Below, piece by piece: positions 11,403-63,711 of a stretch of DNA of 64,000 bases. The position numbers were made by a program, and so were the translations under genes. Numbering within the stretch: position 1 is the first letter of the stretch; the number at the start of each line of letters is the position of its first letter. The notes under the pieces are model-generated. The model was not told the DNA's origin. It was given only the letters and a program-made list of their open reading frames with translations, and did not search any database. The DNA is from Candidatus Kryptobacter tengchongensis. GTDB taxonomy: Bacteria > Bacteroidota > Ignavibacteria > Kryptoniales > Kryptoniaceae. Location of the stretch: the NCBI GenBank assembly GCA_001485605.1, contig FAON01000008.1, forward strand, positions 1-64,000, written 5' to 3'.

Positions 11403-11419
11403 ACATATAAAATTTGATC

Positions 11420-12319
11420 ATGAGTGAAAACGCAAGGAAATATCTTGACCCGAAGGTTGTTTCAAGGTTATCAAATCTTGAATTAATAGCTCGCCTTGTG
11501 GTTGAGGGCTTCATCGTTGGGCTTCATAAAAGTCCATATCATGGTTTTAGTGTTGAGTTTTCTGAACACAGGCAATATTCCCCGGGAGATGAGACAAGGT
11601 ATATTGATTGGAAGGTTTATGGGAGGACAAACAGATATTTTATAAAGCAATTTGAGGAAGAAACAAATTTGAGGGCATACATAATTCTTGATGCGAGCAG
11701 GTCAATGGCTTATTCTTCTGGGGATAATATAACGAAGTTTGAATATGCGTGTTATCTTGCGGGTGCATTATCTTATCTTATGATGATGCAAAGGGATGCG
11801 GTTGGGCTTGTTATTTACGATGAAGGTATAAGAAAGTTTTTGCCACCTCGTTCTGTAAGAAGTTATCTTGATGTTATATTACATGAGCTTGAAAACGCAA
11901 AGCCTGAAAACAAAACAAATACAGCGAAGTCTCTTCATCTTATCGCAGAAAGGATAAAGAGAAGGGGGCTTATAATTTTGTTAAGTGATTTACTTGACGA
12001 TCAAGATGAAGTTATAAGTGCCTTTAAGCATTTCAAACATAAAAAGAATGAAATTATAGTTTTCCAAATCTTGGATCCTTTGGAGAGGAATTTCAATTTT
12101 AATGTTGATGCGCTTTTTAAGGATATGGAGACATCTGAGAAAATGATGACGCAGTCACTTTACATCCAGAGGGATTATCGGCGGGCGCTTAATGAATTTA
12201 TAAAGAGGTATAGATTTGAATGTCTCAACAATGGGATTGATTATGAGGTTATGGATACAGGCACATCGTTTGATGTTGCGCTTTTTAGATATTTGAGCAA
12301 AAGGCGTGGGTTGATGTGA
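11420..12319 (+). CDS. DUF58 domain protein with von Willebrand-like fold
   Basis: 299-aa cytosolic protein of the DUF58 family, usually partnered with MoxR-type AAA ATPases. The DUF58 signature is clear: a long SVEFSEHRQYSPGDE segment followed by RYIDWKVYGRTN. A metal-ion-dependent adhesion site (DASRS) begins the VWA-like part. I prefer the ATG at 11420 over the TTG two codons upstream. No moxR gene is adjacent, so the partner must be elsewhere. A BatA-like protein, which often belongs to the same gene set, lies at 57405. It ends the forward run before the promoter at 12354. Confidence 0.9.
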   Translation: MSENARKYLDPKVVSRLSNLELIARLVVEGFIVGLHKSPYHGFSVEFSEHRQYSPGDETRYIDWKVYGRTNRYFIKQFEEETNLRAYIILDASRSMAYSSGDNITKFEYACYLAGALSYLMMMQRDAVGLVIYDEGIRKFLPPRSVRSYLDVILHELENAKPENKTNTAKSLHLIAERIKRRGLIILLSDLLDDQDEVISAFKHFKHKKNEIIVFQILDPLERNFNFNVDALFKDMETSEKMMTQSLYIQRDYRRALNEFIKRYRFECLNNGIDYEVMDTGTSFDVALFRYLSKRRGLM

Positions 12320-12495: not shown

Positions 12496-15400
12496 ATGCG
12501 ATTCCATTTGATTGTTGCCTTTCTAATTTTATTGATTAATTTGGTCATTTCTCAGGAAAAACTTTCCGACAGGGAGAAGGCGCTTAAAATTTTGAGAGAA
12601 CATTTTAGCAAAGATAGGGAGATTAAGAGAGAGCTTGAGTATGAGCTTATAAAAAATTATTCGCTGATGCTTCTTCAATCTTATCCCAAAAGTGATGTTG
12701 GCAAAAGGAGTGAAGTCAAGAATTTTAAAGCGAGTGATAATTTTGAACTTGAAAAGGTGAAGGCATATGCTGATAGGAAAAGTTTAATCATGAATGGCAA
12801 TAAAATAACAACGATAATTTACAATTACGGTGCAATTGGCGCAGGTGCTAATTTTAACCGTCGGTTAAATGTGATATGGAACAATTTACCACATATTTAT
12901 GAATTTAGCCCCCTTGTTGCTGCTTCTGTGGTTGATACGAATAATAGAAGAATTCACATTGTAAGTGATGGGTTGAGATATTATAGCACAGTTTCACCAG
13001 ATGGGACGGAATTTTGGACATTTAATCCTTTGCCGGGTTACGCTGATCCAAATCAGGACGAAATCGCTCACAATCCTGATAAAGACCGGGATGGGGACGG
13101 TAAGCCGGATTCATGGCCATCAAGTTGGTATGATCCAGTTTTAGGGAAATATGTTTGGCCTGGATATCTTGCAAGAGACGCAACGCAAGCAGACCTTGAA
13201 GCATTCTATGTTATGGATGATAGAGATAATGAAGAATTTGCATATTTCCCATTCCCAGATGATTCTTCAAGGAGAGGTTTAGGTGTTCAAGCTCAAGTAA
13301 GACTTTTACAATGGAGCAATCCACTTGCGGAGGATGCTATATTTATTGTTTATACGATCACTAATGTTAGTTCTAAGGATCTTGATTCGGTTGTCTTTGG
13401 AATGTGGGGTGATCCTCATGTTGGTGGAGCAACAGATTACAGCGATGATGATTCTTATTTTATCCCGCCTTATAATGTTCCGAATTATCCACCTGTTGAT
13501 AATATCCCCATTTACGCAAGGAGCATGGTTTATTCTTGGGATCACGATGGCAGAGGCATGTTTGGTTTAAGGCCTGGATATTTTGGGTATAAATTTTTGG
13601 AGTCGCCTGGGAATCCGTATGATGGTATAGACAACGATGGTGATGGGATGATAGATGAGAGTCAGCAGGATGGTATAGACAACGATGGTGATTGGAATCC
13701 TTTGATAGACGATGTTGGTATGGATGGTATACCTGGGACTGGAGATGAGGGTGAGGGTGATGGTGTTCCGACAAGGGGGAGGCTTCTTCCGGATGGGAGT
13801 TTAGATCCTTTGTATCCTGGTGAACCAAACTTTGAATTCACAGACCTTGATGAATCTGATATGATAGGACTTACAAGCTTTAATGCATTCATTTGGTCAA
13901 CTGATTATGTCAGTAATGATGAAAATATCTGGAACAGGTTAAAACCTGGAAACTTTAGCGAAATAGTTCAGACTGCTGATAATGTATTTCTTTATGGCTC
14001 TGGTTATATTCAGCTTCCGAAGGGTCAAACCAGGCGTTTTTCAGTTGCTTTATTATTGGGTGAGGATTTGAATGATTTGTTGTTGAATGCTGAGACGGTT
14101 CAGAGGATATACAATGCTAATTACAGGTTTTTCCGACCGCCTGAGAGGCCACGAGTTAGGGCAGTTGCTGGGGATAGGAGGGTTGTTTTGTATTGGGATA
14201 GTAGGGCGGAGCGTAGTTTTGATCCTTTGTTTGGTCGTAATCCTTTGGATGAGGGGGATCCTGGGTATGATTTTGAGGGTTATGTTATATACAGGTCTAC
14301 TGATCCGCAGTTTAAGGACATTGAGTTGATAACGGATGGTAGGGGTGCGAGGTATTTGAGGGTTGCGTTGAAGGATGCGTTTGGTAGGGATGCGAGGTTT
14401 GACAAGGTGGATGGTTGGCGTGGTTATAGTGTGGTTTCGTATCCTGGGCGTGGGATACATTATTATTTGGGTGATGATGTTGGTTTGGTTCATAGTTATG
14501 TAGATAGTGTTGGGGTGATGAATGGGGTTAAGTATTATTATGCTGTAGTTTCGTATGATAGGGGTGATAGTTTGGGTATACCACCGAGTGAGTGCACTAT
14601 GAAGGTGGTTGTAGATCCGATAAGTGGGGAGGAGGAGTTGGATGAGAATGTTGTAAGTGTTATACCTGGGGGTAGGGCTATTGGATATGTAGGGCCTGAG
14701 GTTAGCAGGGTAGTAGATGGTGTTAAGTTCAGGCACATAAGGGGCAGGGGTACTGGGAGGATAGAGGTTGAGGTTTTGAATGATTTGGAGGTTAGGGATA
14801 TGGGTTATAGTATATGGTTTGAGGGTAGTGGGGATAGTTTGCGTTGGAATGTTGTATCGGATGAGGAGAGGGTACAGGGTGTAGATTTTGTTGACACGGT
14901 ATGGGTAAAGCTTTTGGGTTTACCTGTAGAGGGGAGTGTTAGGGTAGGTAGTTATGTTGAGGGTGTTGATTATGTAGTTGATTACGGTCGTGGTTTGATA
15001 AGGGCGTTGGTTGGGGGTAGTTTGTTGGGTAGGCGTGGTGTGGAGGTAAGATATAGGTATTATTCTGTCAGGGGTAGTAGGGAGGTTGGGGGTGGAGATG
15101 GTAGTGATGTATTTGATGGGATGAGGATAAGGGTATGGGATGAGAAGTTAGGTTTGGATTTGGAGCGTAGTGGTTGGGGTGGAGGGAGTTTGGGTAGGAT
15201 AGGTTATAAGATAACCACAGCTACATTGGGTTTGGGTCGTAGGATGTATCCTGCGGATTTTGTTATAAGGTTTGGGGTTTTGGATACATTAAGTGATGGT
15301 AGTTTGTCAAGTCCTTTGGATACGAGTGTGAATAATGTTAAGTTGCCTTTTTATGTTGAGAATGTTACGGAGGGGTATAGGATAAAGGTATATGTTCGGG

Positions 15401-15999
15401 ATGTTAATGGGAATAGGAGGTGGGATTTGGGAGAGGATGTTATGTTTTTGGAGCGTGGGACTACTAACAGGACGACATGGCAGGTGTATTTTGAGCCTGT
15501 GAGGGAGGGTGGAGTTGAGTATAGATATCCGAGGGTTGGGATTGATTTGCGTCAGGGTGATGAGTTTTGGGTGAGGACGAGGAGGAGTTTTAACACTATT
15601 GAGGGTGGGGTTATGGATGTGGATAGTTTCAGGCTTGAGGTTAGGGGTCATAGGTATGATGTTAATTTGGCGAGTAGTTTGTTGGATAGGATAAGGGTTG
15701 TTCCGAATCCTTATGTTGGTATAAATGAGCTTGAGCCTGTGAGCAAGTTGCCAGGGCAGGTTAGGGGGGAAAGGAGGATATATTTTGATGGTTTGCCGAG
15801 GGAGTGTGTGATAAGGATATACACATTGAGTGGTGAGTTGGTAAAGGAGATATATCACAACAGTGGTGTTGATAATGGGCGTGAGTATTGGAATTTGTTG
15901 AATAGAGATGGTTTAGGTGTAAGTTATGGAGTTTACATAGCTCACATAGATGCCCCAGGTATAGGACAAAAATTAATTAAATTCGCTATAATAAAGTAA
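12496..15999 (+). CDS. Giant secreted surface protein, paralogue A, with homogenised C-terminal module
   Basis: 1167-aa exported protein. A signal peptide ends near LVISQ at residue 20, followed by a charged EKLSDREKALKIL segment shared with paralogue B. Residues ~90-355 form a conserved N-terminal domain. Residues ~375-440 are Asp/Gly-rich with two DGIDNDGD units, like calcium-binding type 3 thrombospondin repeats. A fibronectin-III-like region follows (AVAGDRRVVLYWD, then VKYYYAVVSYD). The last ~100 residues (VPNPYVGIN..., IRIYTLSGELVKEI, ending KFAIIK) look like an FlgD/T9SS-type C-terminal beta domain. About 800 C-terminal residues equal those of paralogue B. Next to a TonB receptor and PorV, it is probably a T9SS-exported surface protein. 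Ligand and enzymatic activity are unknown. Confidence 0.85.
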   Translation: MRFHLIVAFLILLINLVISQEKLSDREKALKILREHFSKDREIKRELEYELIKNYSLMLLQSYPKSDVGKRSEVKNFKASDNFELEKVKAYADRKSLIMNGNKITTIIYNYGAIGAGANFNRRLNVIWNNLPHIYEFSPLVAASVVDTNNRRIHIVSDGLRYYSTVSPDGTEFWTFNPLPGYADPNQDEIAHNPDKDRDGDGKPDSWPSSWYDPVLGKYVWPGYLARDATQADLEAFYVMDDRDNEEFAYFPFPDDSSRRGLGVQAQVRLLQWSNPLAEDAIFIVYTITNVSSKDLDSVVFGMWGDPHVGGATDYSDDDSYFIPPYNVPNYPPVDNIPIYARSMVYSWDHDGRGMFGLRPGYFGYKFLESPGNPYDGIDNDGDGMIDESQQDGIDNDGDWNPLIDDVGMDGIPGTGDEGEGDGVPTRGRLLPDGSLDPLYPGEPNFEFTDLDESDMIGLTSFNAFIWSTDYVSNDENIWNRLKPGNFSEIVQTADNVFLYGSGYIQLPKGQTRRFSVALLLGEDLNDLLLNAETVQRIYNANYRFFRPPERPRVRAVAGDRRVVLYWDSRAERSFDPLFGRNPLDEGDPGYDFEGYVIYRSTDPQFKDIELITDGRGARYLRVALKDAFGRDARFDKVDGWRGYSVVSYPGRGIHYYLGDDVGLVHSYVDSVGVMNGVKYYYAVVSYDRGDSLGIPPSECTMKVVVDPISGEEELDENVVSVIPGGRAIGYVGPEVSRVVDGVKFRHIRGRGTGRIEVEVLNDLEVRDMGYSIWFEGSGDSLRWNVVSDEERVQGVDFVDTVWVKLLGLPVEGSVRVGSYVEGVDYVVDYGRGLIRALVGGSLLGRRGVEVRYRYYSVRGSREVGGGDGSDVFDGMRIRVWDEKLGLDLERSGWGGGSLGRIGYKITTATLGLGRRMYPADFVIRFGVLDTLSDGSLSSPLDTSVNNVKLPFYVENVTEGYRIKVYVRDVNGNRRWDLGEDVMFLERGTTNRTTWQVYFEPVREGGVEYRYPRVGIDLRQGDEFWVRTRRSFNTIEGGVMDVDSFRLEVRGHRYDVNLASSLLDRIRVVPNPYVGINELEPVSKLPGQVRGERRIYFDGLPRECVIRIYTLSGELVKEIYHNSGVDNGREYWNLLNRDGLGVSYGVYIAHIDAPGIGQKLIKFAIIK

Positions 16000-16000
16000 A
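13606..16000 (+). repeat. 2395-bp direct repeat, copy 1
   Basis: By eye identical to 19950-22344 (offset 6344). The first mismatch upstream is 13605 G versus 19949 A, and the first downstream is 16001 A versus 22345 C. It covers the C-terminal ~800 codons of paralogue A plus the stop. Just upstream of the boundary the paralogues are only roughly 75% alike, so the border is abrupt. From about 14041 to 15930 the coding strand is very rich in G and T; for example 14761-14820 contains no C. No inverted ends or transposase were seen. Confidence 0.95.
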
Positions 16001-16002
16001 AT

Positions 16003-16010
16003 TAAGGAGG
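16003..16010 (+). promoter_or_regulatory. Strong ribosome binding site of the TonB receptor gene
   Basis: TAAGGAGG ends 10 bases before the ATG at 16021. Few genes in the window have a clear Shine-Dalgarno sequence, so this one suggests high expression of the receptor relative to its operon partners. Confidence 0.75.
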
Positions 16011-16020
16011 TTAGTTTAAA

Positions 16021-18717
16021 ATGAAGCGTCTTTTGATAGTTTTTTTGGCTTTAACCCTCGTAGTTGGGTTAGTTTATGGTGGGACAAAAGGTAAAATTGC
16101 TGGTAGAGTTATTGACGCTGAGACAAAAGAACCTTTGCCAGGTGTTAACATTGTCCTTGAGGGAACAACGCTGGGTGCAGCAACTGATGTTAATGGATAT
16201 TATGTTATAACTAATATTCCGCCGGGGACTTATACTGTTGTAGTTTCAGCGGTTGGTTATAGAAAGATCACGGTAAAGAATGTTAAAGTTTCAGCTGATT
16301 TGACCACAACTTTAAATTTTGAGATGGAGCCAGAAGCCATTGGTCTTCCACCAGTTGTTGTTGAAGCAGAACGTCCCCTTGTCAGGGCTGATTTGACATC
16401 TTCACAAGCCGTAGTTGATGCTGAGCAAATCAGGGAATTACCCGTTGAAAATTTTCAGAGAGTTTTGACATTACAAGCTGGTGTCGTAGTTGGTGCTGGA
16501 GGTGATATTCATATAAGAGGCGGAAGATCAACTGAAATTGCATATACAATTGATGGTGTTTCAATAAATGATCCCTTCTTTAACACGCTTGGAATGCAAA
16601 TAGCAAGAAATGCAATCCAAGAAATGACAGTTGTAAGTGGAACATTTAACGCTGAATACGGGAATGCAATGAGTGGAGTTGTTAATATAGTCACTAAGGA
16701 GGGTGGAGCTAAATATACTGGTGAGTTACTTTTATATTCAGGTGATTTTATAAGCAATAGAAAAAACATCTTTTTTAACATAGATAAAGTAGACCCGCTT
16801 AATAATTCTGTAGTTGAGTTTAGTTTGGGAGGACCATTTCCGTTTTTGGGCAAGGTTTTATCATTTTTCACATCGTTAAGATGGGAAAACAATAAAGGTT
16901 GGCTTTACGGGGTAAGGGAACATCAACCCAGCGATCAACCTAATTTCAATGACGCTAATAATTGGATTATTCCAGTGACTGGGGATGGGGCAATTGTTCC
17001 AATGAATCCGAGTTGGAATTTAAATAGCACAGCAAAGTTAACTTTCAGAGCTACTTCAACTGTTAAGATCAATATTGATGGTCTTTATGATAAAAGCTGG
17101 TATAAAAGTTATAACCACCTTTTCAAATATAATCCTGATGGAACCTATCAATTCCGTGATGAGAATTACAAGATTGGTTTGACATTATCCCATGCTTTGA
17201 GCAATAAAACATTTTATGAATTTAGGGTTTCGTATAATTATCAAAAGTTTCGCCAGTATCTTTACGAAAATCCACTTGATCCAAGATATCAACCTGTGGA
17301 AAGGTTAGCAAGACCGACAAGTTTTACCTTTTACTTTGGTGGAACGCAGAACGACCATGTTTATAGAGACTCAAAAACATTTTTGGCGAAGTTTGACATA
17401 ACGAGCCAAGTTTCTGACTATCATGAAGTAAAAACAGGTTTTGAAGTACGCCTACATAAACTTGATTTTGTTTACTTCACAGTTTTAAGAGACACTTTGA
17501 AATACCTTGAACCAACAATTCCTGAAATAACATCTCCGTATCACAACAGGTATACCCGGAAACCTGTGATTTTCTCTGTATATGCTCAAGATAAGATGGA
17601 GTATAAAGATATGATTGTTAATTTAGGTTTGCGTTATGATTATTTTGATCCGAAGGCGGACTATTCAAGGTTCATCTGGTATCCTGATCCAAATGATCCG
17701 ACGATACCACCTATAATTTTGCGTGATACTCTTATAGCGAGGGCTTCACCAAAACATCAAATAAGCCCACGACTTGGCGTTTCCTATCCAATTACAGATA
17801 GGGGTATCTTACATTTTTCTTATGGCTGGTTTTTACAGATGCCCCCATTTACATATCTTTACACTAATCCAGAGTTTAAATCTGCTCTTTTTGTTGGGAC
17901 GCCAACATTCGGGAATGCAAACTTAAAACCTGAGAAAACAGTTGCCTATGAATTCGGTCTACAACAGCAACTTACAGATAATCTTGCGATTAATATCACT
18001 GGCTTTTACAAAGATGTTCGGGATTTGCTTGCTTTGCAAAGAACGAGGATAAGCCAAGAGAAAGTTTATAATCTTTATGTTAACAAAGATTATGGCAACA
18101 TAAAAGGATTTACCTTTTCCTTGGTAAAAAGAAGATTGAAAGGTGAGTTACTTGCAGCTACACTTGACTACACTTATCAAGTCGCTGAGGGTAACGATCC
18201 AAATCCGGATGCATTCTTTATTGATCTTAAATCCGGAAGAGAGCCCGAGAAAGTTCTTGTTTATCTTGATTGGGATCAAAGGCACACCTTGAATGGAACT
18301 ATTAGCATTGGGGTTCAAGATAATTGGAATTTAAGTTTTATCGGTCAATATGGTTCTGGGCTTCCGTATACTCCTTACATTACAAACAATCGCCTTGAGC
18401 TGAGAAGAAATAGCGAACGAAAACCAGCACGTATGCAAGTTGATATGATGTTTGAAAAGTTATTTAAATGGTTTGGTTTAAGGTGGAGTTTATTTGTCAA
18501 AGTATATAACTTGTTTGATAATCTTAATGAAAGGTATGTATATGATGATACTGGAACTGCGCAATATACACTCGCCAAGCAAAGAGGAGAAGGAATTGTA
18601 GTTGATCAATGGGTTGGCAAAATCCCTGGTGTTCATTCATCTGATGATTATTATACAAGACCACATTATTACTATCCACCGAGAGAAATTAGAGTTGGAT
18701 TTTCAATTGGATTTTAA
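16021..18717 (+). CDS. TonB-dependent receptor with carboxypeptidase-regulatory-like domain
   Basis: 898-aa outer-membrane receptor. Signal peptide ~1-20. A CarboxypepD_reg-like beta domain covers ~26-110 (GRVIDAETKEPLPGVNI... NGYYVITNIPPGTYTV). The plug covers ~125-235 and includes DIHIRGGRSTEIAYTIDG and NAEYGNAMSGVVNIVTK. A beta barrel follows to a terminal phenylalanine. This architecture is the SusC/OMR-like type of FCB bacteria, which takes up substrates with energy from TonB-ExbBD. It lies between the two giant paralogues (21 and 23 bp gaps) and 5' of PorV, so the four form one operon. The large surface proteins may work with it as SusD-like partners, but no SusD fold was recognised. 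Confidence 0.93.
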   Translation: MKRLLIVFLALTLVVGLVYGGTKGKIAGRVIDAETKEPLPGVNIVLEGTTLGAATDVNGYYVITNIPPGTYTVVVSAVGYRKITVKNVKVSADLTTTLNFEMEPEAIGLPPVVVEAERPLVRADLTSSQAVVDAEQIRELPVENFQRVLTLQAGVVVGAGGDIHIRGGRSTEIAYTIDGVSINDPFFNTLGMQIARNAIQEMTVVSGTFNAEYGNAMSGVVNIVTKEGGAKYTGELLLYSGDFISNRKNIFFNIDKVDPLNNSVVEFSLGGPFPFLGKVLSFFTSLRWENNKGWLYGVREHQPSDQPNFNDANNWIIPVTGDGAIVPMNPSWNLNSTAKLTFRATSTVKINIDGLYDKSWYKSYNHLFKYNPDGTYQFRDENYKIGLTLSHALSNKTFYEFRVSYNYQKFRQYLYENPLDPRYQPVERLARPTSFTFYFGGTQNDHVYRDSKTFLAKFDITSQVSDYHEVKTGFEVRLHKLDFVYFTVLRDTLKYLEPTIPEITSPYHNRYTRKPVIFSVYAQDKMEYKDMIVNLGLRYDYFDPKADYSRFIWYPDPNDPTIPPIILRDTLIARASPKHQISPRLGVSYPITDRGILHFSYGWFLQMPPFTYLYTNPEFKSALFVGTPTFGNANLKPEKTVAYEFGLQQQLTDNLAINITGFYKDVRDLLALQRTRISQEKVYNLYVNKDYGNIKGFTFSLVKRRLKGELLAATLDYTYQVAEGNDPNPDAFFIDLKSGREPEKVLVYLDWDQRHTLNGTISIGVQDNWNLSFIGQYGSGLPYTPYITNNRLELRRNSERKPARMQVDMMFEKLFKWFGLRWSLFVKVYNLFDNLNERYVYDDTGTAQYTLAKQRGEGIVVDQWVGKIPGVHSSDDYYTRPHYYYPPREIRVGFSIGF

Positions 18718-18740
18718 AAACAAATTTTTCGTGAGTTAAA

Positions 18741-21700
18741 ATGAGAAAAGGAATTTATGTAATACTTGCAGTTTTAACTTTAGTTTCGGTTGGATTCTCT
18801 CAGCAAAAATTGTCCGACAGAGAAAAAGCACTGCAGATATTGCGCGGTTTGACATCAAAAGAAAGAGAAGAACAGAGAAAAATAGAATATAAGGTTATTG
18901 GTGATTACATCCAATCAGGGTATAGTTCCTCTTTAGCTAAATCAAAAGACCTAAAAGCAAAGGAGACTTCGGGTGATTTGCCACCGTATATAGCCAATAA
19001 TCCGAAGCTTGCGGAAAAATATAAAAAGATCAAGTCTTTATCAAGCCTGGAAATTCAGAATTTTTATCGTGAGATTGACAAGAACATCCGCAAGACGGCA
19101 GGTGAAGCGGATAGGAAAAAACTTGTGATGAATGGTAATAAAATAACCGTCACAGTTTATAACTATGGTTCTCTTTCAGCTCCGGGTGATAGAATAACTG
19201 ATGTTGTGTGGAATGGTTTGGGATATGCTTATGAATTTGGACCTCTTGTTGGTGCATCTGTGGTTGATACAAGTGGTAGAAGAATTCACATTATAACAGA
19301 TGGTTTGCTTGATGGTGGCGATCGCTCTCCTGATGGCACAAAAAGATGGGGATGGCAACCACTTCCGGGTTATGCTGATCCAAATCAGGACAAAATTGCT
19401 CACAATCCCGATCAAGACCGGGATGGGGACGGTAAGCCGGATTCATGGCCATCAAGTTGGTATGATCCAGTTTTAGGGAAATATGTTTGGCCTGGATATC
19501 TTGCAAGAGATGCAACGCAGGCAGACCTTGAAGCATTCTATGTTATGGATGATAGAGATAATAAAGAACATCCTTATTTTCCATTTCCTGATGATTCATC
19601 AAGGAGAGGGCTTGGAGTTCAAGTACAGGTTAGAGCTTTACAATGGGCTAACCCACTTGCCGAGGATTGTATTTTCTTTGTTTATACGATTACAAATGTA
19701 TCTCCTAAAACTCTTGATTCGGTTATTTTTGGGATGTACGGTGATGCTGACATTGGAGGCGGTGCCCCAACCAGTAATGAGCAAACCGATGACGATGCAT
19801 TTTTTGTGCCCCCTTATAATGTTCCAAATTATCCCCCTGTTGATAACATCCCTGTGTATGCAAGAAGTATGGTTTACATCTATGATCATGACGGTAAGGG
19901 TGAATTTGGTTTAAAGCCTGGATATTTTGGGTATAAATTTTTGGAGTCACCTGGGAATCCGTATGATGGTATAGACAACGATGGTGATGGGATGATAGAT
20001 GAGAGTCAGCAGGATGGTATAGACAACGATGGTGATTGGAATCCTTTGATAGACGATGTTGGTATGGATGGTATACCTGGGACTGGAGATGAGGGTGAGG
20101 GTGATGGTGTTCCGACAAGGGGGAGGCTTCTTCCGGATGGGAGTTTAGATCCTTTGTATCCTGGTGAACCAAACTTTGAATTCACAGACCTTGATGAATC
20201 TGATATGATAGGACTTACAAGCTTTAATGCATTCATTTGGTCAACTGATTATGTCAGTAATGATGAAAATATCTGGAACAGGTTAAAACCTGGAAACTTT
20301 AGCGAAATAGTTCAGACTGCTGATAATGTATTTCTTTATGGCTCTGGTTATATTCAGCTTCCGAAGGGTCAAACCAGGCGTTTTTCAGTTGCTTTATTAT
20401 TGGGTGAGGATTTGAATGATTTGTTGTTGAATGCTGAGACGGTTCAGAGGATATACAATGCTAATTACAGGTTTTTCCGACCGCCTGAGAGGCCACGAGT
20501 TAGGGCAGTTGCTGGGGATAGGAGGGTTGTTTTGTATTGGGATAGTAGGGCGGAGCGTAGTTTTGATCCTTTGTTTGGTCGTAATCCTTTGGATGAGGGG
20601 GATCCTGGGTATGATTTTGAGGGTTATGTTATATACAGGTCTACTGATCCGCAGTTTAAGGACATTGAGTTGATAACGGATGGTAGGGGTGCGAGGTATT
20701 TGAGGGTTGCGTTGAAGGATGCGTTTGGTAGGGATGCGAGGTTTGACAAGGTGGATGGTTGGCGTGGTTATAGTGTGGTTTCGTATCCTGGGCGTGGGAT
20801 ACATTATTATTTGGGTGATGATGTTGGTTTGGTTCATAGTTATGTAGATAGTGTTGGGGTGATGAATGGGGTTAAGTATTATTATGCTGTAGTTTCGTAT
20901 GATAGGGGTGATAGTTTGGGTATACCACCGAGTGAGTGCACTATGAAGGTGGTTGTAGATCCGATAAGTGGGGAGGAGGAGTTGGATGAGAATGTTGTAA
21001 GTGTTATACCTGGGGGTAGGGCTATTGGATATGTAGGGCCTGAGGTTAGCAGGGTAGTAGATGGTGTTAAGTTCAGGCACATAAGGGGCAGGGGTACTGG
21101 GAGGATAGAGGTTGAGGTTTTGAATGATTTGGAGGTTAGGGATATGGGTTATAGTATATGGTTTGAGGGTAGTGGGGATAGTTTGCGTTGGAATGTTGTA
21201 TCGGATGAGGAGAGGGTACAGGGTGTAGATTTTGTTGACACGGTATGGGTAAAGCTTTTGGGTTTACCTGTAGAGGGGAGTGTTAGGGTAGGTAGTTATG
21301 TTGAGGGTGTTGATTATGTAGTTGATTACGGTCGTGGTTTGATAAGGGCGTTGGTTGGGGGTAGTTTGTTGGGTAGGCGTGGTGTGGAGGTAAGATATAG
21401 GTATTATTCTGTCAGGGGTAGTAGGGAGGTTGGGGGTGGAGATGGTAGTGATGTATTTGATGGGATGAGGATAAGGGTATGGGATGAGAAGTTAGGTTTG
21501 GATTTGGAGCGTAGTGGTTGGGGTGGAGGGAGTTTGGGTAGGATAGGTTATAAGATAACCACAGCTACATTGGGTTTGGGTCGTAGGATGTATCCTGCGG
21601 ATTTTGTTATAAGGTTTGGGGTTTTGGATACATTAAGTGATGGTAGTTTGTCAAGTCCTTTGGATACGAGTGTGAATAATGTTAAGTTGCCTTTTTATGT

Positions 21701-22343
21701 TGAGAATGTTACGGAGGGGTATAGGATAAAGGTATATGTTCGGGATGTTAATGGGAATAGGAGGTGGGATTTGGGAGAGGATGTTATGTTTTTGGAGCGT
21801 GGGACTACTAACAGGACGACATGGCAGGTGTATTTTGAGCCTGTGAGGGAGGGTGGAGTTGAGTATAGATATCCGAGGGTTGGGATTGATTTGCGTCAGG
21901 GTGATGAGTTTTGGGTGAGGACGAGGAGGAGTTTTAACACTATTGAGGGTGGGGTTATGGATGTGGATAGTTTCAGGCTTGAGGTTAGGGGTCATAGGTA
22001 TGATGTTAATTTGGCGAGTAGTTTGTTGGATAGGATAAGGGTTGTTCCGAATCCTTATGTTGGTATAAATGAGCTTGAGCCTGTGAGCAAGTTGCCAGGG
22101 CAGGTTAGGGGGGAAAGGAGGATATATTTTGATGGTTTGCCGAGGGAGTGTGTGATAAGGATATACACATTGAGTGGTGAGTTGGTAAAGGAGATATATC
22201 ACAACAGTGGTGTTGATAATGGGCGTGAGTATTGGAATTTGTTGAATAGAGATGGTTTAGGTGTAAGTTATGGAGTTTACATAGCTCACATAGATGCCCC
22301 AGGTATAGGACAAAAATTAATTAAATTCGCTATAATAAAGTAA
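18741..22343 (+). CDS. Giant secreted surface protein, paralogue B, with homogenised C-terminal module
   Basis: 1200-aa paralogue of the 12496 protein with the same order: signal peptide (ending VGFSQ), QKLSDREKALQIL segment, N-terminal domain, Asp/Gly-rich DGIDNDGD repeats, fibronectin-like region and C-terminal sorting-like domain ending KFAIIK. The N-terminal ~390 residues differ from paralogue A, including a Lys-rich insertion near residues 65-125. The last ~800 residues are identical. It follows the TonB receptor by 23 bp and precedes the porV-like gene by 20 bp. A duplication whose C-terminal part has been homogenised by gene conversion explains the pattern best. A recent unequal crossover or an assembly duplication are alternatives. 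Confidence 0.85.
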   Translation: MRKGIYVILAVLTLVSVGFSQQKLSDREKALQILRGLTSKEREEQRKIEYKVIGDYIQSGYSSSLAKSKDLKAKETSGDLPPYIANNPKLAEKYKKIKSLSSLEIQNFYREIDKNIRKTAGEADRKKLVMNGNKITVTVYNYGSLSAPGDRITDVVWNGLGYAYEFGPLVGASVVDTSGRRIHIITDGLLDGGDRSPDGTKRWGWQPLPGYADPNQDKIAHNPDQDRDGDGKPDSWPSSWYDPVLGKYVWPGYLARDATQADLEAFYVMDDRDNKEHPYFPFPDDSSRRGLGVQVQVRALQWANPLAEDCIFFVYTITNVSPKTLDSVIFGMYGDADIGGGAPTSNEQTDDDAFFVPPYNVPNYPPVDNIPVYARSMVYIYDHDGKGEFGLKPGYFGYKFLESPGNPYDGIDNDGDGMIDESQQDGIDNDGDWNPLIDDVGMDGIPGTGDEGEGDGVPTRGRLLPDGSLDPLYPGEPNFEFTDLDESDMIGLTSFNAFIWSTDYVSNDENIWNRLKPGNFSEIVQTADNVFLYGSGYIQLPKGQTRRFSVALLLGEDLNDLLLNAETVQRIYNANYRFFRPPERPRVRAVAGDRRVVLYWDSRAERSFDPLFGRNPLDEGDPGYDFEGYVIYRSTDPQFKDIELITDGRGARYLRVALKDAFGRDARFDKVDGWRGYSVVSYPGRGIHYYLGDDVGLVHSYVDSVGVMNGVKYYYAVVSYDRGDSLGIPPSECTMKVVVDPISGEEELDENVVSVIPGGRAIGYVGPEVSRVVDGVKFRHIRGRGTGRIEVEVLNDLEVRDMGYSIWFEGSGDSLRWNVVSDEERVQGVDFVDTVWVKLLGLPVEGSVRVGSYVEGVDYVVDYGRGLIRALVGGSLLGRRGVEVRYRYYSVRGSREVGGGDGSDVFDGMRIRVWDEKLGLDLERSGWGGGSLGRIGYKITTATLGLGRRMYPADFVIRFGVLDTLSDGSLSSPLDTSVNNVKLPFYVENVTEGYRIKVYVRDVNGNRRWDLGEDVMFLERGTTNRTTWQVYFEPVREGGVEYRYPRVGIDLRQGDEFWVRTRRSFNTIEGGVMDVDSFRLEVRGHRYDVNLASSLLDRIRVVPNPYVGINELEPVSKLPGQVRGERRIYFDGLPRECVIRIYTLSGELVKEIYHNSGVDNGREYWNLLNRDGLGVSYGVYIAHIDAPGIGQKLIKFAIIK

Positions 22344-22344
22344 A
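19950..22344 (+). repeat. 2395-bp direct repeat, copy 2
   Basis: Second copy of 13606-16000 in the same orientation. The minus-strand shadow frames also translate identically in both copies, which supports identity at the nucleotide level over the regions they cover. The two copies enclose the TonB receptor gene and the divergent part of paralogue B. Homologous recombination between them would delete or duplicate exactly 6344 bp and leave an intact hybrid gene. Confidence 0.95.
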
Positions 22345-23409: not shown

Positions 23410-24351
23410 GTGTCTGGATACCTGATAGGAATTGATGGCGGAGGAACAAAGACGCACGGGATTATAGCTGATTTTAATTGCAATGCTATAGCTGAAGCCA
23501 TCGGTGGCTCGGCAAATTTTCAAATGCTCGGGGTTGAACCCGTTGCTAAATTGCTTGTTAACTTGATATATGAACTTGTTGATAAGGCTGGATGTAAAAT
23601 TTCGGATGTTAAACTTGCAGTGCTTGGTCTTACAGGTGCAGGCAGGGAAAAGGATAGGGAAAAAATCTATAATGGTTTGATTAATTTTGCAAAAGATAAT
23701 AATTTGTCTCTTCCAGAGATAATTATAGAGACAGATGCGAGGATTGCTCTTGAAGGTGCCTTTATGGGGAAAGCAGGGATAATTTTAATAGCTGGAACTG
23801 GTTCTGTTATGTTTGCTAAAGATATAGATGGTAAAATTCATAGAGTTGGGGGATGGGGAAGATTTATAGGGGATGAGGGGAGCGCCTTCGTTATGGGGCG
23901 TGAAGCTTTAAGGGCTGTGGCAAAATATGTTGATGGAAGAGGTGAAGAAACAATCTTAAAAAGTTTGATCTTTGATGAGTTTAATATAACAGATTTAATG
24001 CAGATTGTTAGTGAAATTTATTCAGGGAAATTTGATATAGCGAAGGTTGCACCAATTGTGATGAAAGCAGTTGAAATGGGGGATGCAGTTGCTAAAAAAA
24101 TTCTTGATCAGGCGTGTGATGAACTTTTAGCTCATGTAAAAGCGATGCTTAATAAAGCTAAATTTGGTGAAACCGTCAAACTTTCTCTGATCGGTGGTGT
24201 TCTTCAAAGCGATAACTATGTTTCAAGAAAGTTAAGGGAGATGATTAAGGTTGAACTTCCTCAAGTTGATTTAATTGAGCCAATGGCTTCGCCAGCACAT
24301 GGGGCTGTGGTTTATGCAAAAAACTTGATTAAAAATAAATCATTGAATTAA
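23410..24351 (+). CDS. BadF/BadG-type N-acetylglucosamine/N-acetylmuramic acid kinase
   Basis: 313-aa sugar kinase of the BadF/BadG/BcrA/BcrD ATPase family. The phosphate 1 loop is GIDGGGTKT at the N terminus, the phosphate 2 region is LIAGTGSVMFA near residue 130, and GGWGRFIGDEGSAFVMG matches the conserved GlcNAc kinase block. Family members phosphorylate GlcNAc or, in MurK-type enzymes, both MurNAc and GlcNAc. It precedes a NagZ-like fusion protein by 3 bp and a sodium symporter after that, a pattern typical of peptidoglycan amino-sugar salvage. The start is GTG 23410. A murQ etherase gene, which would settle a MurNAc role, is not in the window. Confidence 0.85.
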   Translation: MSGYLIGIDGGGTKTHGIIADFNCNAIAEAIGGSANFQMLGVEPVAKLLVNLIYELVDKAGCKISDVKLAVLGLTGAGREKDREKIYNGLINFAKDNNLSLPEIIIETDARIALEGAFMGKAGIILIAGTGSVMFAKDIDGKIHRVGGWGRFIGDEGSAFVMGREALRAVAKYVDGRGEETILKSLIFDEFNITDLMQIVSEIYSGKFDIAKVAPIVMKAVEMGDAVAKKILDQACDELLAHVKAMLNKAKFGETVKLSLIGGVLQSDNYVSRKLREMIKVELPQVDLIEPMASPAHGAVVYAKNLIKNKSLN

Positions 24352-24354
24352 AAG

Positions 24355-27255
24355 ATGAGGAAAACAATTTTGTTATTTCTCGCTCTCGCTCTTTCAATGG
24401 TTCTGTTGTCAATCGTGATCACTAAAGTAGCAGGCAATGTGAGGAAAGATATGTTTCTATCGCAACAATCCCAGCAGAATAAAAAGAAAAAAGTTGACTT
24501 AACTAACTTGACGAAAGATCAATGGGTAAATCATTGGATGAAAAAGTTAACACTTGAAGAGAAGGTTGCGCAGATGATAATGCCAGATGCTCGTGGGGTT
24601 TTTCTCGCACGAGATAATAAAGAGTTTAAACGGTTGGTTCGCTATGTTAAGGATAAAAAAGTTGGGGGTTTGATTTTCTTTCGTGGGGATGTTTATGAAA
24701 CAGCTGAGATGATAAATTACTTCCAAAAAATTGCTGAAATTCCGCTTTTGATCTCAGCTGATTTTGAATGGGGGACGGCAATGCGCCTTGACAATACAAC
24801 TCACTTCCCACCAGCAATGGGAATTGCTGCTACTGGAAAACCTGAATACGCCTATGAAGTAGGGAAAATAACCGCAATAGAAGGACGAGCAATTGGTATT
24901 CATCAAAATTATGCTCCAACCGTTGATGTAAATAATAACTATAAAAACCCAATTATTAACATTCGCTCTTTTGGTGAAACTCCCGAAATAGTTTCAAAAT
25001 TTGCAGTTGAATTTATCCGTGGACTTCAAGAGGGTGGGATGATTGCAACCGCCAAGCATTTCCCTGGTCATGGCGATACAGATGTTGATTCACATCTTGA
25101 TCTACCTGTTATCAATTATTCAAAATCAAGGTTAGATTCAATTGAGTTACCACCATTCAAAGAATCTATAAAAGCTGGGGTTAAGTCAATAATGGTTGCA
25201 CATATTTTTTACCCTCAAATAGATACAGGCAGAGGCTTGCCATCCACCTTATCGTATAACATTGTAACTGGAATTTTGAAGAAAGAACTCGGTTTTAAAG
25301 GTTTAATTGTAACTGATGCAATGACGATGCGAGGCGTAACGAAACTTTATTCAAATGCCCTTGCTTCTGTCCTTGCTGTTAAAGCTGGAAATGATATAAT
25401 TTTAATCCCGCCCGATGTTGAGGAGGCAATTGATGCTATCGTAAAAGCTGTAAAGAGAGGAGATATACCTGAGGAAAGAATAAATGAATCTGTAAGGAAA
25501 ATACTTGAATTCAAATATGACCTTGGTTTGCACAGGAATAGATTTGTTGATTTAAGTAAAATACCTGAACTTGTCGCCACGGAAGAGCATCTTAGGAAAG
25601 CGAAGGATATATCGCGGGCTTCAATTACCGTCGTCAAGAATGATAATGTTTTGCCTTTGATGCAGTTTGATAGCAAGAAAATTTTGCTTATAACTTTGGT
25701 GGATTCAAACGACCCGAATAGTGGAAGTTCCTTTGTTTCGGAGATTGCAAAAAGATACGATAATATCTCATTTGAAAGAGTTGATTTAAGAAGCACAATT
25801 GATGAACTTAATGCTATACTTTCAAAGTTAAATAACTTTGACCTTGTTATAGTTTCAGCTTATGTTCGTGTTAGAGCATATCAAGCGTCGCTTTCGCTGC
25901 CGGAAAAACAAGCGAAATTTTTAAAGCAAGTTGTTGATTCTGGGAAACCTGTTATTTTGATATCTTTTGGCAATCCGTACATTGTCATTGATTATCCAAG
26001 TGTAAAAGCTTATATTTGCTCGTATTCTGATGCTCAGCCTGTTGTTGAGGCGACAGCCGAAGTTTTGTTTGGTGAAATTTCACCTCAGGGGAAATTACCC
26101 ATTAGCATTCCGGGGTTTGCAAGGCTTGGAACTGGATTAAGTTATCCTCAAACAACGCTTCGTTATGGTTATCCTGATGAGGCTGGGCTTGACGCGAATA
26201 AACTTGCAAAACTTGATACTATAATGGAAAAAGCAATTCAGGATTCGGTGACGCCTGGAGCTGTGCTTCTTGTTGCAAGAAATGGTGTTATAGCATATCA
26301 TAAGGCTTTTGGAACTTATAGCTATGACCCCTATTCAAGGAAAGTTAATCCTGGTTCAATTTATGATATGGCTTCTATCACCAAGGTTGCCGCAACTACA
26401 ATTTCAATTATGAAACTTTATGATGAGGGTAAAATTGATCTTGATGATCCTGTTGCGAAGTATATCCCAAAGTTTGCTCAAAATGGAAAGGGGGGTGTCA
26501 CAATTAAAAATTTGCTTCTTCACAATAGTGGTCTTCCGTCTTGGAAACCATTTTTTAAACTTTGTAAAACGCCCAATGAGATTCTTGATTCAATTTATGC
26601 TCAACCTCTTGTTTATAAAACAGGTGATTCAACTGTTTACAGCGATCTTGGTTTTATAACGCTTGGAAAAATTGTTGAAGTTGTTACAGGAATGCCATTG
26701 GAGCAATATGTCAGTAAGACTTTTTACATCCCGCTTGGGATGAAATCAACAACTTTTCTTCCTCCTAAGGGATGGATTGATAATATTGCTCCTACCGAAT
26801 ATGATAGTTCGCTTGGTGGATTTGTTCACGGAGTTGTTCATGATGAGAACGCCAGAGCTCTTGGTGGGGTTTCGGGACACGCCGGATTATTTTCAAATGC
26901 GCGAGATCTTGCTGTGCTTATGCAAATGATTTTGAATAGGGGTGAATACGGAGGTAAGAGATTTTTCAAAAATGAAACAGTTGAGCTTTTCATAAAAAGG
27001 TGGGCTAATAACCGTGGGCTTGGCTGGGATAATGCTCTCTCACCCTACGGTAAAAGCGCACTGGATGGAGCTTTCGGTGAAAATGCCTTTGGACATACGG
27101 GTTTCACAGGAACATCTGTATATGTTTACCCGGAGAAAAATCTAATCGCTGTCCTTTTGACAAATCGCGTTCATCCAACAAGAGCAAACAATAAACATAT
27201 TCAGCTAAGGAAAATTGTTCATAAGGCAATTGCAGAGGCAATTTCATCACCTTAA
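24355..27255 (+). CDS. Exported GH3 beta-N-acetylhexosaminidase fused to a class C beta-lactamase-like domain
   Basis: 966-aa fusion with an N-terminal signal or anchor helix (~5-22). The GH3 part (~60-400) has KHFPGHGDT with a following DSH, the NagZ general acid/base loop, and the nucleophile Asp321 in IVTDAMTMRG. A GH3 C-terminal domain covers ~420-600. The last ~350 residues are a serine beta-lactamase/D,D-peptidase fold with Ser674-Ile-Thr-Lys677, Tyr762-Ser-Asp764 and His914-Thr-Gly916. The probable role is cutting GlcNAc-MurNAc and acting on the peptide or an ester in the periplasm. The kinase upstream and the symporter downstream fit use of the released sugar. The same fusion is known in other Bacteroidota; the substrate of the second domain is not established here. 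Confidence 0.92.
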   Translation: MRKTILLFLALALSMVLLSIVITKVAGNVRKDMFLSQQSQQNKKKKVDLTNLTKDQWVNHWMKKLTLEEKVAQMIMPDARGVFLARDNKEFKRLVRYVKDKKVGGLIFFRGDVYETAEMINYFQKIAEIPLLISADFEWGTAMRLDNTTHFPPAMGIAATGKPEYAYEVGKITAIEGRAIGIHQNYAPTVDVNNNYKNPIINIRSFGETPEIVSKFAVEFIRGLQEGGMIATAKHFPGHGDTDVDSHLDLPVINYSKSRLDSIELPPFKESIKAGVKSIMVAHIFYPQIDTGRGLPSTLSYNIVTGILKKELGFKGLIVTDAMTMRGVTKLYSNALASVLAVKAGNDIILIPPDVEEAIDAIVKAVKRGDIPEERINESVRKILEFKYDLGLHRNRFVDLSKIPELVATEEHLRKAKDISRASITVVKNDNVLPLMQFDSKKILLITLVDSNDPNSGSSFVSEIAKRYDNISFERVDLRSTIDELNAILSKLNNFDLVIVSAYVRVRAYQASLSLPEKQAKFLKQVVDSGKPVILISFGNPYIVIDYPSVKAYICSYSDAQPVVEATAEVLFGEISPQGKLPISIPGFARLGTGLSYPQTTLRYGYPDEAGLDANKLAKLDTIMEKAIQDSVTPGAVLLVARNGVIAYHKAFGTYSYDPYSRKVNPGSIYDMASITKVAATTISIMKLYDEGKIDLDDPVAKYIPKFAQNGKGGVTIKNLLLHNSGLPSWKPFFKLCKTPNEILDSIYAQPLVYKTGDSTVYSDLGFITLGKIVEVVTGMPLEQYVSKTFYIPLGMKSTTFLPPKGWIDNIAPTEYDSSLGGFVHGVVHDENARALGGVSGHAGLFSNARDLAVLMQMILNRGEYGGKRFFKNETVELFIKRWANNRGLGWDNALSPYGKSALDGAFGENAFGHTGFTGTSVYVYPEKNLIAVLLTNRVHPTRANNKHIQLRKIVHKAIAEAISSP

Positions 27256-27287
27256 ATTTTTAGTTTAAAAACAAAAACAAGTGTCAA

Positions 27288-29045
27288 ATGCATCTTATTG
27301 ACTGGGCTATCATTGTTTTATATTTTGTTTTAAGCATTGGTATTGGAATTTACTATTCAAAAAGAGCTGGTAAAAACATAAGTGAATTTTTTCTCTCGGG
27401 GAGAAACCTACCTTGGTGGCTTGCCGGGACATCAATGGTTGCAACGACATTTGCTGCCGATACACCTCTTGCGGTGACCGAGCTTGTCGCTAAAAATGGA
27501 ATAGCTGGAAACTGGCTTTGGTGGAACTTTCTCTTCGGTTCAATGTTGACTGTCTTCTTCTTCGCAAGGTTATGGAGAAGAGCTGGTATTCTAACAGATG
27601 TTGAATTCGTTGAACTAAGATATTCGGGTAAACCGGCATCCTTCCTTCGCGGGTTTAAAGCACTTTATCTTGGTTTGTTTATTAACACTGTGATAATTGG
27701 CTGGGTAAATGTTGCGATGATTTCAATCCTTACAGGATTTTTTGGGGTTCCAGAGGAAATGGTAAGATATTATGTCTTTGGTGCTATGTTGATAGTTGCA
27801 ATTTATTCTGCTCTTTCGGGGCTTTGGGGGGTTGCAGTTACAGATGCGGTTCAGTTTGTAATAGCAATGTCAGGCACAATAATTCTTGCGGTGGTTGTTG
27901 TTAATCTACCTCAAATAAATGGAATCGCTGGGTTGAAAGAACGTCTCCCGGAATGGGTTTTTAAATTTACGCCTGTTATCGGTGCTGAAAAGGAGATCGC
28001 CTATGGTGGGGTTTTGGCTTTGACAATCCCATCTTTTATCGCTTATATTTTTATTCAATGGTGGGCTTCCTGGTATCCAGGGGCTGAACCAGGTGGAGGC
28101 GGTTATGTTGCCCAAAGAATGATGTCAGCAAAAGATGAAAAACATTCTTTACTTGCGACTCTTTGGTTTACCGTTGCACATTACTGTATAAGACCATGGC
28201 CGTGGATAATTGTAGGGCTTGCAACTATTGTTCTCTACCCTGAACTCGGGATTGATGATAAAAAACTTGGATATATCTACGCAATGAGAGATTTTCTCCC
28301 CACAGGATTAAAGGGTCTGCTTGTAGCTGCGTTTTTCGCCGCTTATATGTCAACCATAGCAACGCACTTAAACTGGGGCACATCTTATGTGATAAACGAC
28401 TTCTATAAAAGATTTATAAAAAGAGATGCAAGTGAAAAACATTATGTCTTTATATCAAGGATTGCAACGCTTCTTGTGATGATTGCCTCCGTTTTGATAA
28501 CCCTGATAATAAAAACGATTTCAGGGGCATGGCAATTCATAATTGAAGCAAGCGCTGGGCTTGGGCTTGTGTTGATTTTGAGATGGTATTGGTGGAGAAT
28601 AAATGCCTGGAGCGAAATTGTCGCAATGATTGCTCCCTTTTTCGGTTACGCTTATATAAAACTTTACACAAAAATAAGTTTTCCCGAGACGCTTTTCTAT
28701 ATCGTTGCTTTTACAACGCTCTCCTGGCTTGTAGCGACATTTATAACAAAACCCGTTGATAAGGAACATCTTATCAATTTTTATCGCCGTGTTCATCCAG
28801 GTGGGATTGGATGGAAAAAAATATCTCAACTTGTCCCGGAAGTTAAATCTGATCCTGGGTTTATCTATTTGTTTATTGATTGGATAAGCGGTGTTGTTTT
28901 AGTTTACATGATGTTGTTTGGAATTGGCAAGATAGTTCTTGGCGAATATCTTGGTGGTGTGATTTATATTTTGATTGGTCTTTCTGCTGGATTGGTAATT
29001 TACTTTGATTTATCAAGACGTGGATGGGAAAAAGCTATTGAATGA
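27288..29045 (+). CDS. Sodium:solute symporter (SSS family)
   Basis: 585-aa inner-membrane transporter of the sodium:solute symporter family. It begins with LIDWAIIVLYFVLSIGIGIYY and the SEFFLSGRNLPWW segment, then SMVATTFAADTP, the conserved sodium-site helix region. About 13-15 membrane segments are visible, and length fits the sugar and amino-sugar branch. It starts 32 bp after the GH3 fusion gene, and the ~320 bp after it hold no long gene, so it probably ends the operon. Given the neighbours, the likely cargo is an amino sugar or muropeptide fragment, by context only. Confidence 0.9.
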   Translation: MHLIDWAIIVLYFVLSIGIGIYYSKRAGKNISEFFLSGRNLPWWLAGTSMVATTFAADTPLAVTELVAKNGIAGNWLWWNFLFGSMLTVFFFARLWRRAGILTDVEFVELRYSGKPASFLRGFKALYLGLFINTVIIGWVNVAMISILTGFFGVPEEMVRYYVFGAMLIVAIYSALSGLWGVAVTDAVQFVIAMSGTIILAVVVVNLPQINGIAGLKERLPEWVFKFTPVIGAEKEIAYGGVLALTIPSFIAYIFIQWWASWYPGAEPGGGGYVAQRMMSAKDEKHSLLATLWFTVAHYCIRPWPWIIVGLATIVLYPELGIDDKKLGYIYAMRDFLPTGLKGLLVAAFFAAYMSTIATHLNWGTSYVINDFYKRFIKRDASEKHYVFISRIATLLVMIASVLITLIIKTISGAWQFIIEASAGLGLVLILRWYWWRINAWSEIVAMIAPFFGYAYIKLYTKISFPETLFYIVAFTTLSWLVATFITKPVDKEHLINFYRRVHPGGIGWKKISQLVPEVKSDPGFIYLFIDWISGVVLVYMMLFGIGKIVLGEYLGGVIYILIGLSAGLVIYFDLSRRGWEKAIE

Positions 29046-63087: not shown

Positions 63088-63711
63088 ATGGAGATTTTCG
63101 GTGTTGCTCTCACATTAATTTCGTTAATACTTGCTTATCAGGCATGGCAAAATGGGAAATTGATGAAACAGATGCATGTTGAAAGTATGGCTATGATCAA
63201 AAGTATAAAAGAATTAAATGAGGCAATCAAGGAAGATATAAGGATTTCAAGTCAGGAGACAAGGATGTTGATGGAAAAAATAAGTCAGGAAATGAGGGCG
63301 TTGATGGAAAAATCAAGTCAAGAGACAGGGGCATTGATGGAAAAAATAAGTCAGGAAACGAGGGTATTGATAGAAAAATCAAGTCAAGAGACAAGGATAT
63401 TAATGGAAAAAATAAGTCAGGAAATGAGGACATCGTTAGAAAAGTCAAGTGAAGAGACGAAAGCGTTGCTTGAGAGGATGGAAAGGTCAAGTGAGGAAAT
63501 GAGGGCATTTATGGAAAAGTCAAGCGCGGAGACAATGGCATTGCTTAATAGGATGGAGAGGTCAAGTGAGGAAATGAAAGCATTGCTTGAGAGAATTCAT
63601 AAAGGACAAGAGGAAGCCAGAAAAGAGATGGCAAATGCAATTAAATATATCGCTGAGTTAATCGTTGCAGACGGTGAGAGGACGAGACAACTTTTAAGAT
63701 CAGGGGGGTAA
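63088..63711 (+). CDS. Membrane-anchored hendecad-repeat coiled-coil protein
   Basis: 207-aa protein of unknown function. One N-terminal membrane helix (residues 3-20) is followed by a charged helical linker. An 11-residue repeat runs from residue 54 to 170: six units alternating SSQE... and ISQE... with MEK ends, then units of 14, 11, 14 and 11 residues (SSEETKALLERMER type). Such hendecads form long, nearly straight right-handed coiled coils. Residues 171-207 are another helix without the repeat. The geometry suggests a rod projecting from the inner membrane. It has its own candidate promoter and is not clearly linked to the transporter that follows. Confidence 0.8.
   Translation: MEIFGVALTLISLILAYQAWQNGKLMKQMHVESMAMIKSIKELNEAIKEDIRISSQETRMLMEKISQEMRALMEKSSQETGALMEKISQETRVLIEKSSQETRILMEKISQEMRTSLEKSSEETKALLERMERSSEEMRAFMEKSSAETMALLNRMERSSEEMKALLERIHKGQEEARKEMANAIKYIAELIVADGERTRQLLRSGG
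63247..63597 (+). repeat. 33-bp tandem repeats (66-bp higher-order period) within the coiled-coil gene
   Basis: Ten imperfect units encode the hendecads, with unit lengths 33 x6, 42, 33, 42, 33 bp. Because SSQ and ISQ units alternate in the first six, the effective period there is 66 bp. The copies are alike enough at DNA level for replication slippage to change their number in frame. Confidence 0.8.

Follow-up and report, generated by a model that had tools for sequence, protein, structure and literature searches.

Homogenization and the formation of chimeras between surface-protein paralogs are already known from other bacteria, and the two genes described here, A and B, are a further case. 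In Helicobacter pylori, gene conversion takes place between the genes of two outer-membrane protein paralogs, babA and babB (PMC4552749). A and B, found in a window of 64,000 nucleotides (the whole stretch of DNA that was analyzed) from Candidatus Kryptobacter tengchongensis, resemble this pair in that two homologous surface-protein genes share a near-identical C-terminal region next to a diverged part and have become chimeric by intragenomic recombination. Unlike babA and babB, they are direct repeats that lie 6.3 kb apart and flank the gene of a TonB-dependent receptor, they carry a swapped segment between two homogenized tracts, they have no reported phase-variable repeat, and their host is an FCB thermophile-type lineage with T9SS-type proteins.

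Large surface proteins that are retained on a barrel have been described in the T9SS, where PorU is held on PorV and PorZ on PorQ (PMC10202324, PMC8545088), and type B adhesins are held on cognate PorP/SprF barrels, as in SprB/SprF (PMC12618676, PMC9143113). As in these pairs of cargo and cognate barrel, a large surface protein with a C-terminal domain (CTD) is encoded directly beside a PorV-type barrel at the locus, and the CTD of B most resembles the one in PorZ, a protein that PorQ binds and retains. In contrast to these pairs, the CTD of B scores below the cutoff of the type A sorting-domain model TIGR04183 (12.8 versus 23 bits), the unit includes a TonB-dependent receptor, and many paralogous triads of this kind occur per genome.

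A third comparison is with SusC/SusD. There too a receptor is encoded with a large surface protein, here one with a predicted super-beta-sandwich resembling that of sugar enzymes, and the unit may work like SusC/SusD. However, the receptor is far under the SusC/RagA cutoff (TIGR04056, 92 versus 368 bits), no SusD family was found in A or B with Pfam or NCBIfam, a PorV-type barrel is part of the unit, and the surface protein would be exported by the T9SS and placed on a dedicated PorV-type barrel.

We conclude that A and B are very probably anciently duplicated T9SS-type surface-protein genes in which recombination has, on more than one occasion, replaced sequence of one copy by that of the other. 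In a lineage of which little has been cultured, the locus cleanly preserves the traces of at least two recombination rounds between genes for large surface proteins. Of greater value is the conserved triad of receptor, CTD protein, and PorV-type barrel.

An identical 3' module in diverged paralogs

The features of the locus are collected in Table 1. A and B matched no Pfam family at an E value of 0.001, with only stray matches at 0.1, and had neither a PHROG match nor a solved homolog detectable by sequence. A match to an NCBIfam phage tail tube model was ignored, as it reached 19.6 of the 60 bits required. The initial annotation had named the neighbors as a TonB receptor and PorV. The receptor stands; the barrel belongs to the PorV/PorQ family (NF033709, 222 bits against a cutoff of 90) but scores far below the threshold for PorV proper (NF033710, 78 bits against 250).

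Table 1. Features of the A/B locus, in window coordinates
Feature	Position	Strand	Evidence
Gene A, 1,167-aa surface-protein paralog, extra copy 5' of the receptor, Kryptonia genus only	12496..15999	+	ORF, homolog comparison
Patch t1 in A, second homogenized tract (B equivalent, 19414-19562)	13082..13230	+	Comparison
Segment X in A, B-type sequence	13231..13571	+	Diagnostic sites, tree
Identical module of 2,395 bp, A copy	13606..16000	+	Direct comparison
TonB-dependent receptor, CarboxypepD_reg_2 domain, 898 aa	16021..18717	+	Domain search
Gene B, 1,200-aa surface protein, regular middle member of the triad	18741..22343	+	ORF, homolog comparison
Segment X in B, A-type sequence	19563..19915	+	Diagnostic sites, tree; coordinates from offsets
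Identical module of 2,395 bp, B copy	19950..22344	+	Direct comparison
C-terminal domain of B, residues ~1104-1200, PorZ-CTD-like; identical letters end A	22051..22340	+	Sequence and predicted structure
PorV/PorQ-family outer-membrane barrel, 341 aa	22364..23389	+	Pfam/NCBIfam profiles

The two 3' segments had been described as identical base for base, and exact alignment bears this out: all 2,395 of 2,395 positions match, with 0 mismatches, and the match cannot be extended by a single base to the left or to the right. The right edge lies 1 nt past the stop codon in both genes, which is where homology between the two loci ends. The left edge is a lone mismatch at 13605, preceded by a further 33 identical bases (13572-13604). 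A search of the 2.68-Mb genome (16 contigs) for further copies of the module, as had been suggested, returned these two only, and the next DNA match was 116 bp at 71% identity.

Upstream of the module the genes are homologous and diverged, with mean identities between the heads of 70.6% in DNA and 66 to 67% in protein. An earlier estimate of about 75% DNA identity for this region was right as to divergence but suggested an evenness that is not there: identity is ~35 to 60% near the N terminus and 65 to 85% further on, and the near-identical patch t1 interrupts it. Silent sites follow the same pattern. At fourfold-degenerate sites, A and B match at 14 of 31 in the head, 21 of 21 in t1, 18 of 35 between t1 and the module, and 312 of 313 from A residue 360 to the stop codon. 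The identity tract thus includes silent sites and lies inside otherwise diverged homologous genes of one genome, and the proposal of recent gene conversion in the initial annotation is upheld.

Strong purifying selection could in principle keep the module identical, and B residues 404 to 765 and the C-terminal domain are indeed well conserved in FCB homologs. But A and B agree at silent sites within the module and diverge at those of the head, a pattern that neither chance nor selection on the protein can have caused. Moreover, module DNA differs by ~15 to 28% along most of its length when species of the genus are compared, and in the family no folded stretch is less conserved than the middle part of the module. 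We regard selection as the explanation of this identity as next to impossible. The latest homogenized tract consists of the last ~2.4 kb of the gene and stopped where homology stops, 1 nt beyond the stop codon.

A probable older exchange at t1 and segment X

Six other genomes of the genus were compared (G001 to G006; seven species in all), among them Ca. Kryptonium thompsonii JGI-4 (G001), Ca. Chrysopegis kryptomonas JGI-23 (G002), and Ca. Thermokryptus sp. RSWP10 (G005). Diagnostic sites were defined as positions where G001 and G006 share one state in their A genes while G002, G004, and G005 share another in B. In the head, up to position 13081, 46 of 53 such sites are A-type in A and B-type in B. 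Both diagnostic sites of t1 are B-type in both copies. In segment X, which separates t1 from the module, the assignment is reversed, with 27 of 31 sites B-type in A and A-type in B. The B coordinates of X were obtained from the A-to-B offset, which is 6332 before and 6344 after a 12-bp indel. In a tree of X, the window's B groups with the A gene of G001 (support 98/95), and the AU test rejects a grouping of the three A genes as a clade (P = 1.5e-5).

Because each copy holds the other's X, one-way copying cannot easily account for the swap. Within t1, exact runs of 97 and 42 bp are accompanied by two private mismatches, at 13179 (in A) and 13188 (in B). Two private changes in 149 bp versus none in the 2,395 bp of the module indicate that the module was overwritten later than t1. 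Provided that the assembly is phased correctly, an older exchange homogenized t1 and left X swapped. Both the exact identity of the module and the phase of X come from a single assembly of one genome.

Ordinary RecA-type homologous recombination between the direct repeats A and B is the presumed mechanism, with the swap of X arising through two crossovers. For example, a circle carrying module, receptor, B head, t1, and X could pop out through the module and reenter through t1, giving the observed order.

Age and loss of gene A in the genus

Gene order at the locus is kept in the genus and reads VimE-like, EamA, DUF58 (11414-12319 in the window), A where present, receptor, B, PorV-type barrel, BadF/NagK-type kinase, and GH3-beta-lactamase. 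Orthologs of the A head are found in G001, G003, and G006, and G004 is without A. G002 (locus L035) has a frameshifted remnant directly before the receptor gene, in which a piece of the head is fused to the gene's final 51 bp, and G005 (locus L081) retains only the first ~110 codons of A before its receptor gene; the two remnants arose by different deletions. In a tree of four neighboring genes, G005 and G006 pair as sisters and are split from the remaining five genomes. Together with the distribution of orthologs and remnants, this split puts A in the common ancestor of the genus, with A lost or decaying in three lineages. A is therefore ancestral and has been lost or has decayed in three of the seven species.

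In the tree of heads, the A genes and the B genes form separate clades across species (95/97 and 100/99), and the duplication thus predates the radiation of the genus. The tree of modules has no such split, and the window's two copies are identical. In the window genome the two trees conflict, as the head clusters by gene and the module by genome. Ancient duplication, recent homogenization, and repeated loss of A are all recorded at this locus.

Had the 3' module or the entire gene been duplicated very recently, with no conversion of an old paralog, the module would also be completely identical, as observed. However, A is as old as the genus, with a head clade that includes G001, G003, and G006 and remnants in G002 and G005. 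The remnant in G002 also includes the gene's 3' terminus, which means that A already possessed a module end of its own. We consider recent duplication very improbable, and conversion of an old paralog is retained.

Homogenization may have occurred earlier elsewhere in the genus. The A module of G006 has 92 to 98% protein identity to B modules over its first 126 residues, with 65 to 72% identity between its head and B heads, which is suggestive only. When the other species were analyzed alone, with one copy missing per assembly, a clade of A genes in the module was not rejected (AU test, P = 0.36 and 0.55).

The ends of contigs point the same way. In all three relatives with an A head (G001, G003, and G006), the left-hand contig stops inside A and the right-hand one inside the 3' end of B, with the receptor-bearing contig absent from the assembly. 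Assembly runs through the locus in G002 and G004, neither of which has an intact A; the G005 assembly, which is fragmented, is interrupted in the receptor gene. Any given 3.5 kb would be expected to contain 0.05 to 0.15 contig ends. Breaks at such a site are the usual sign of a near-identical repeat that the assembler did not resolve. G001, G003, and G006 probably also hold homogenized copies of A and B, and homogenization would explain why their assemblies break at this locus.

These breaks also bear on a technical explanation, in which an assembler working from short reads merged two similar modules into a single consensus and placed it twice, switched between copies at t1 and so created a false swap of X, or did both. 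The published Kryptonia genomes were assembled from short reads with SPAdes (PMC4737851), the 2.4-kb repeat exceeds the read length, three relatives break at the locus, and a switch at t1 would yield exactly the swap of X that is seen. Collapse, however, needs near-identity beforehand; it may hide a few differences but cannot create homogenization. The assembler also kept the two copies of t1 apart, with one private change each and a longest exact run of 97 bp, and the heads of A and B and both flanks are unique and present in relatives. An assembly artifact is on balance unlikely. As judged from these sequence comparisons, it is similarly unlikely that the assembler duplicated a single gene, given the orthologs of the A head in three species and the remnants at the same place in two more.

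The surface proteins and the receptor/barrel triad

The structure of B was predicted with AlphaFold2 from an alignment of 62 homologs (mean pLDDT of 79.9, pTM of 0.75). Within residues ~118 to 750, a super-beta-sandwich is predicted whose matches are mostly to the N-terminal domain of GH94/GH65/GH15-type enzymes and to GH116 (Z of ~15 to 19 over 235 to 281 aligned residues, rmsd of 3.1 to 4.3). An identification of A and B as sugar enzymes was not adopted; the match is read as a common fold, with no claim of catalysis. The last ~75 residues of B resemble the C-terminal part of PorZ in sequence (E = 4.4e-5). Foldseek also ranks PorZ first for B, with a TM-score that is low over the whole chain. 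SprA is encoded in the genome (TIGR04189, 1,003 bits against a cutoff of 200), as are 60 type A T9SS sorting domains in 2.7 Mb, which makes a T9SS likely. About 30 matches resembling TonB-dependent receptors were also seen in this genome.

The initial annotation had seen in A and B different N-terminal domains on a constant body and, by extension, a modular system of variable heads. The heads are in fact homologous, and the conversion border, at B residue 403/404, lies inside the predicted super-beta-sandwich region and so is not a domain border. Across 59 FCB homologs, identity to B is 54% in the folded core of the head and 58% over the initial part of the module; the lowest value of any folded stretch, 24%, falls within the module, in its middle part. 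These values are at odds with the idea of a constant body bearing variable heads, as the head core is about as conserved as the start of the module and the most variable stretch lies inside the module itself.

A system of antigenic or phase variation that shuffles heads onto such a body would be in keeping with the movement of segments between A and B and with the apparent surface exposure of both proteins. Against this, there are only two full copies, the border falls within a predicted domain, and the 2.68-Mb genome contains no silent variant cassettes or further heads. The A and B head clades are stable throughout the genus, which means that heads have not been shuffled. Antigenic variation is accordingly a highly unlikely account, and we favor homogenization of two old paralogs. 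A shared body could be of use if one barrel has to export and hold both proteins and one receptor works with both, in which case homogenized alleles might persist while the far N-terminal region is free to diverge.

Homologous loci were collected from Ignavibacteria, KSB1, Calditrichota, Marinimicrobia, and Rhodothermales (80 loci, L096 to L175). A TonB-dependent receptor gene immediately precedes the surface-protein gene in 64 of the 65 loci that could be judged, the sole exception being gene A of Ca. K. thompsonii, and in 66 of 66 a PorV-type gene immediately follows it. The unit is thus a triad, to which B regularly belongs and to which the Kryptonia genus has added A. The genome has further paralogous units of receptor and large CTD protein, some of them outside the window (C8, 81.8 to 87.7 kb; C14, 9 to 16 kb; C16, 70.4 to 76.4 kb), and the other members of the family are in separate triads with at most 50% amino acid identity. 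No description of the triad was found in the open-access literature searched on Ignavibacteria, Marinimicrobia, and Calditrichota, which is weak evidence of novelty, and other searches returned general T9SS papers only. The triad looks like an undescribed outer-membrane uptake unit.

By analogy with PorU on PorV, PorZ on PorQ, and the type B adhesins on PorP/SprF barrels, it may well be that the T9SS exports the surface protein and that an uncleaved CTD holds it on a PorV/PorQ-type barrel of its own. The predicted role of the triad is likely the capture of a ligand at the surface beside the TonB-dependent receptor, and the fold allows a guess that this ligand might be a carbohydrate. More tentatively, the triad could be an FCB-wide uptake complex, hitherto undescribed, in which the exported protein is locked on its own barrel beside the receptor, and of which Kryptonia keeps two such proteins per receptor and barrel, with recurrent recombination keeping the partner-facing body in step while other segments are exchanged; we hold this full reading to be possible but doubtful. 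The triad makes it testable whether the many PorV paralogs per genome are dedicated anchors for single surface proteins.

Downstream of the barrel, a BadF/NagK-type kinase, a fusion of GH3 with a class C beta-lactamase-like domain, and a sodium:solute symporter follow in a row (23410-29045), which is possibly a cluster for scavenging amino sugars or muropeptides. Scavenging of peptidoglycan or amino sugars as the function of the triad was not taken up, as the kinase and the GH3-beta-lactamase, which are conserved downstream in the genus, were not found beside the triads of other families, and this neighborhood was not used as proof. Elsewhere in the window, an ORF of 207 aa (63088-63711) has a hydrophobic N terminus and a coiled-coil-like repeat of 11 residues (SSQETRxLMEK-like), encoded by tandem units of 33 bp.
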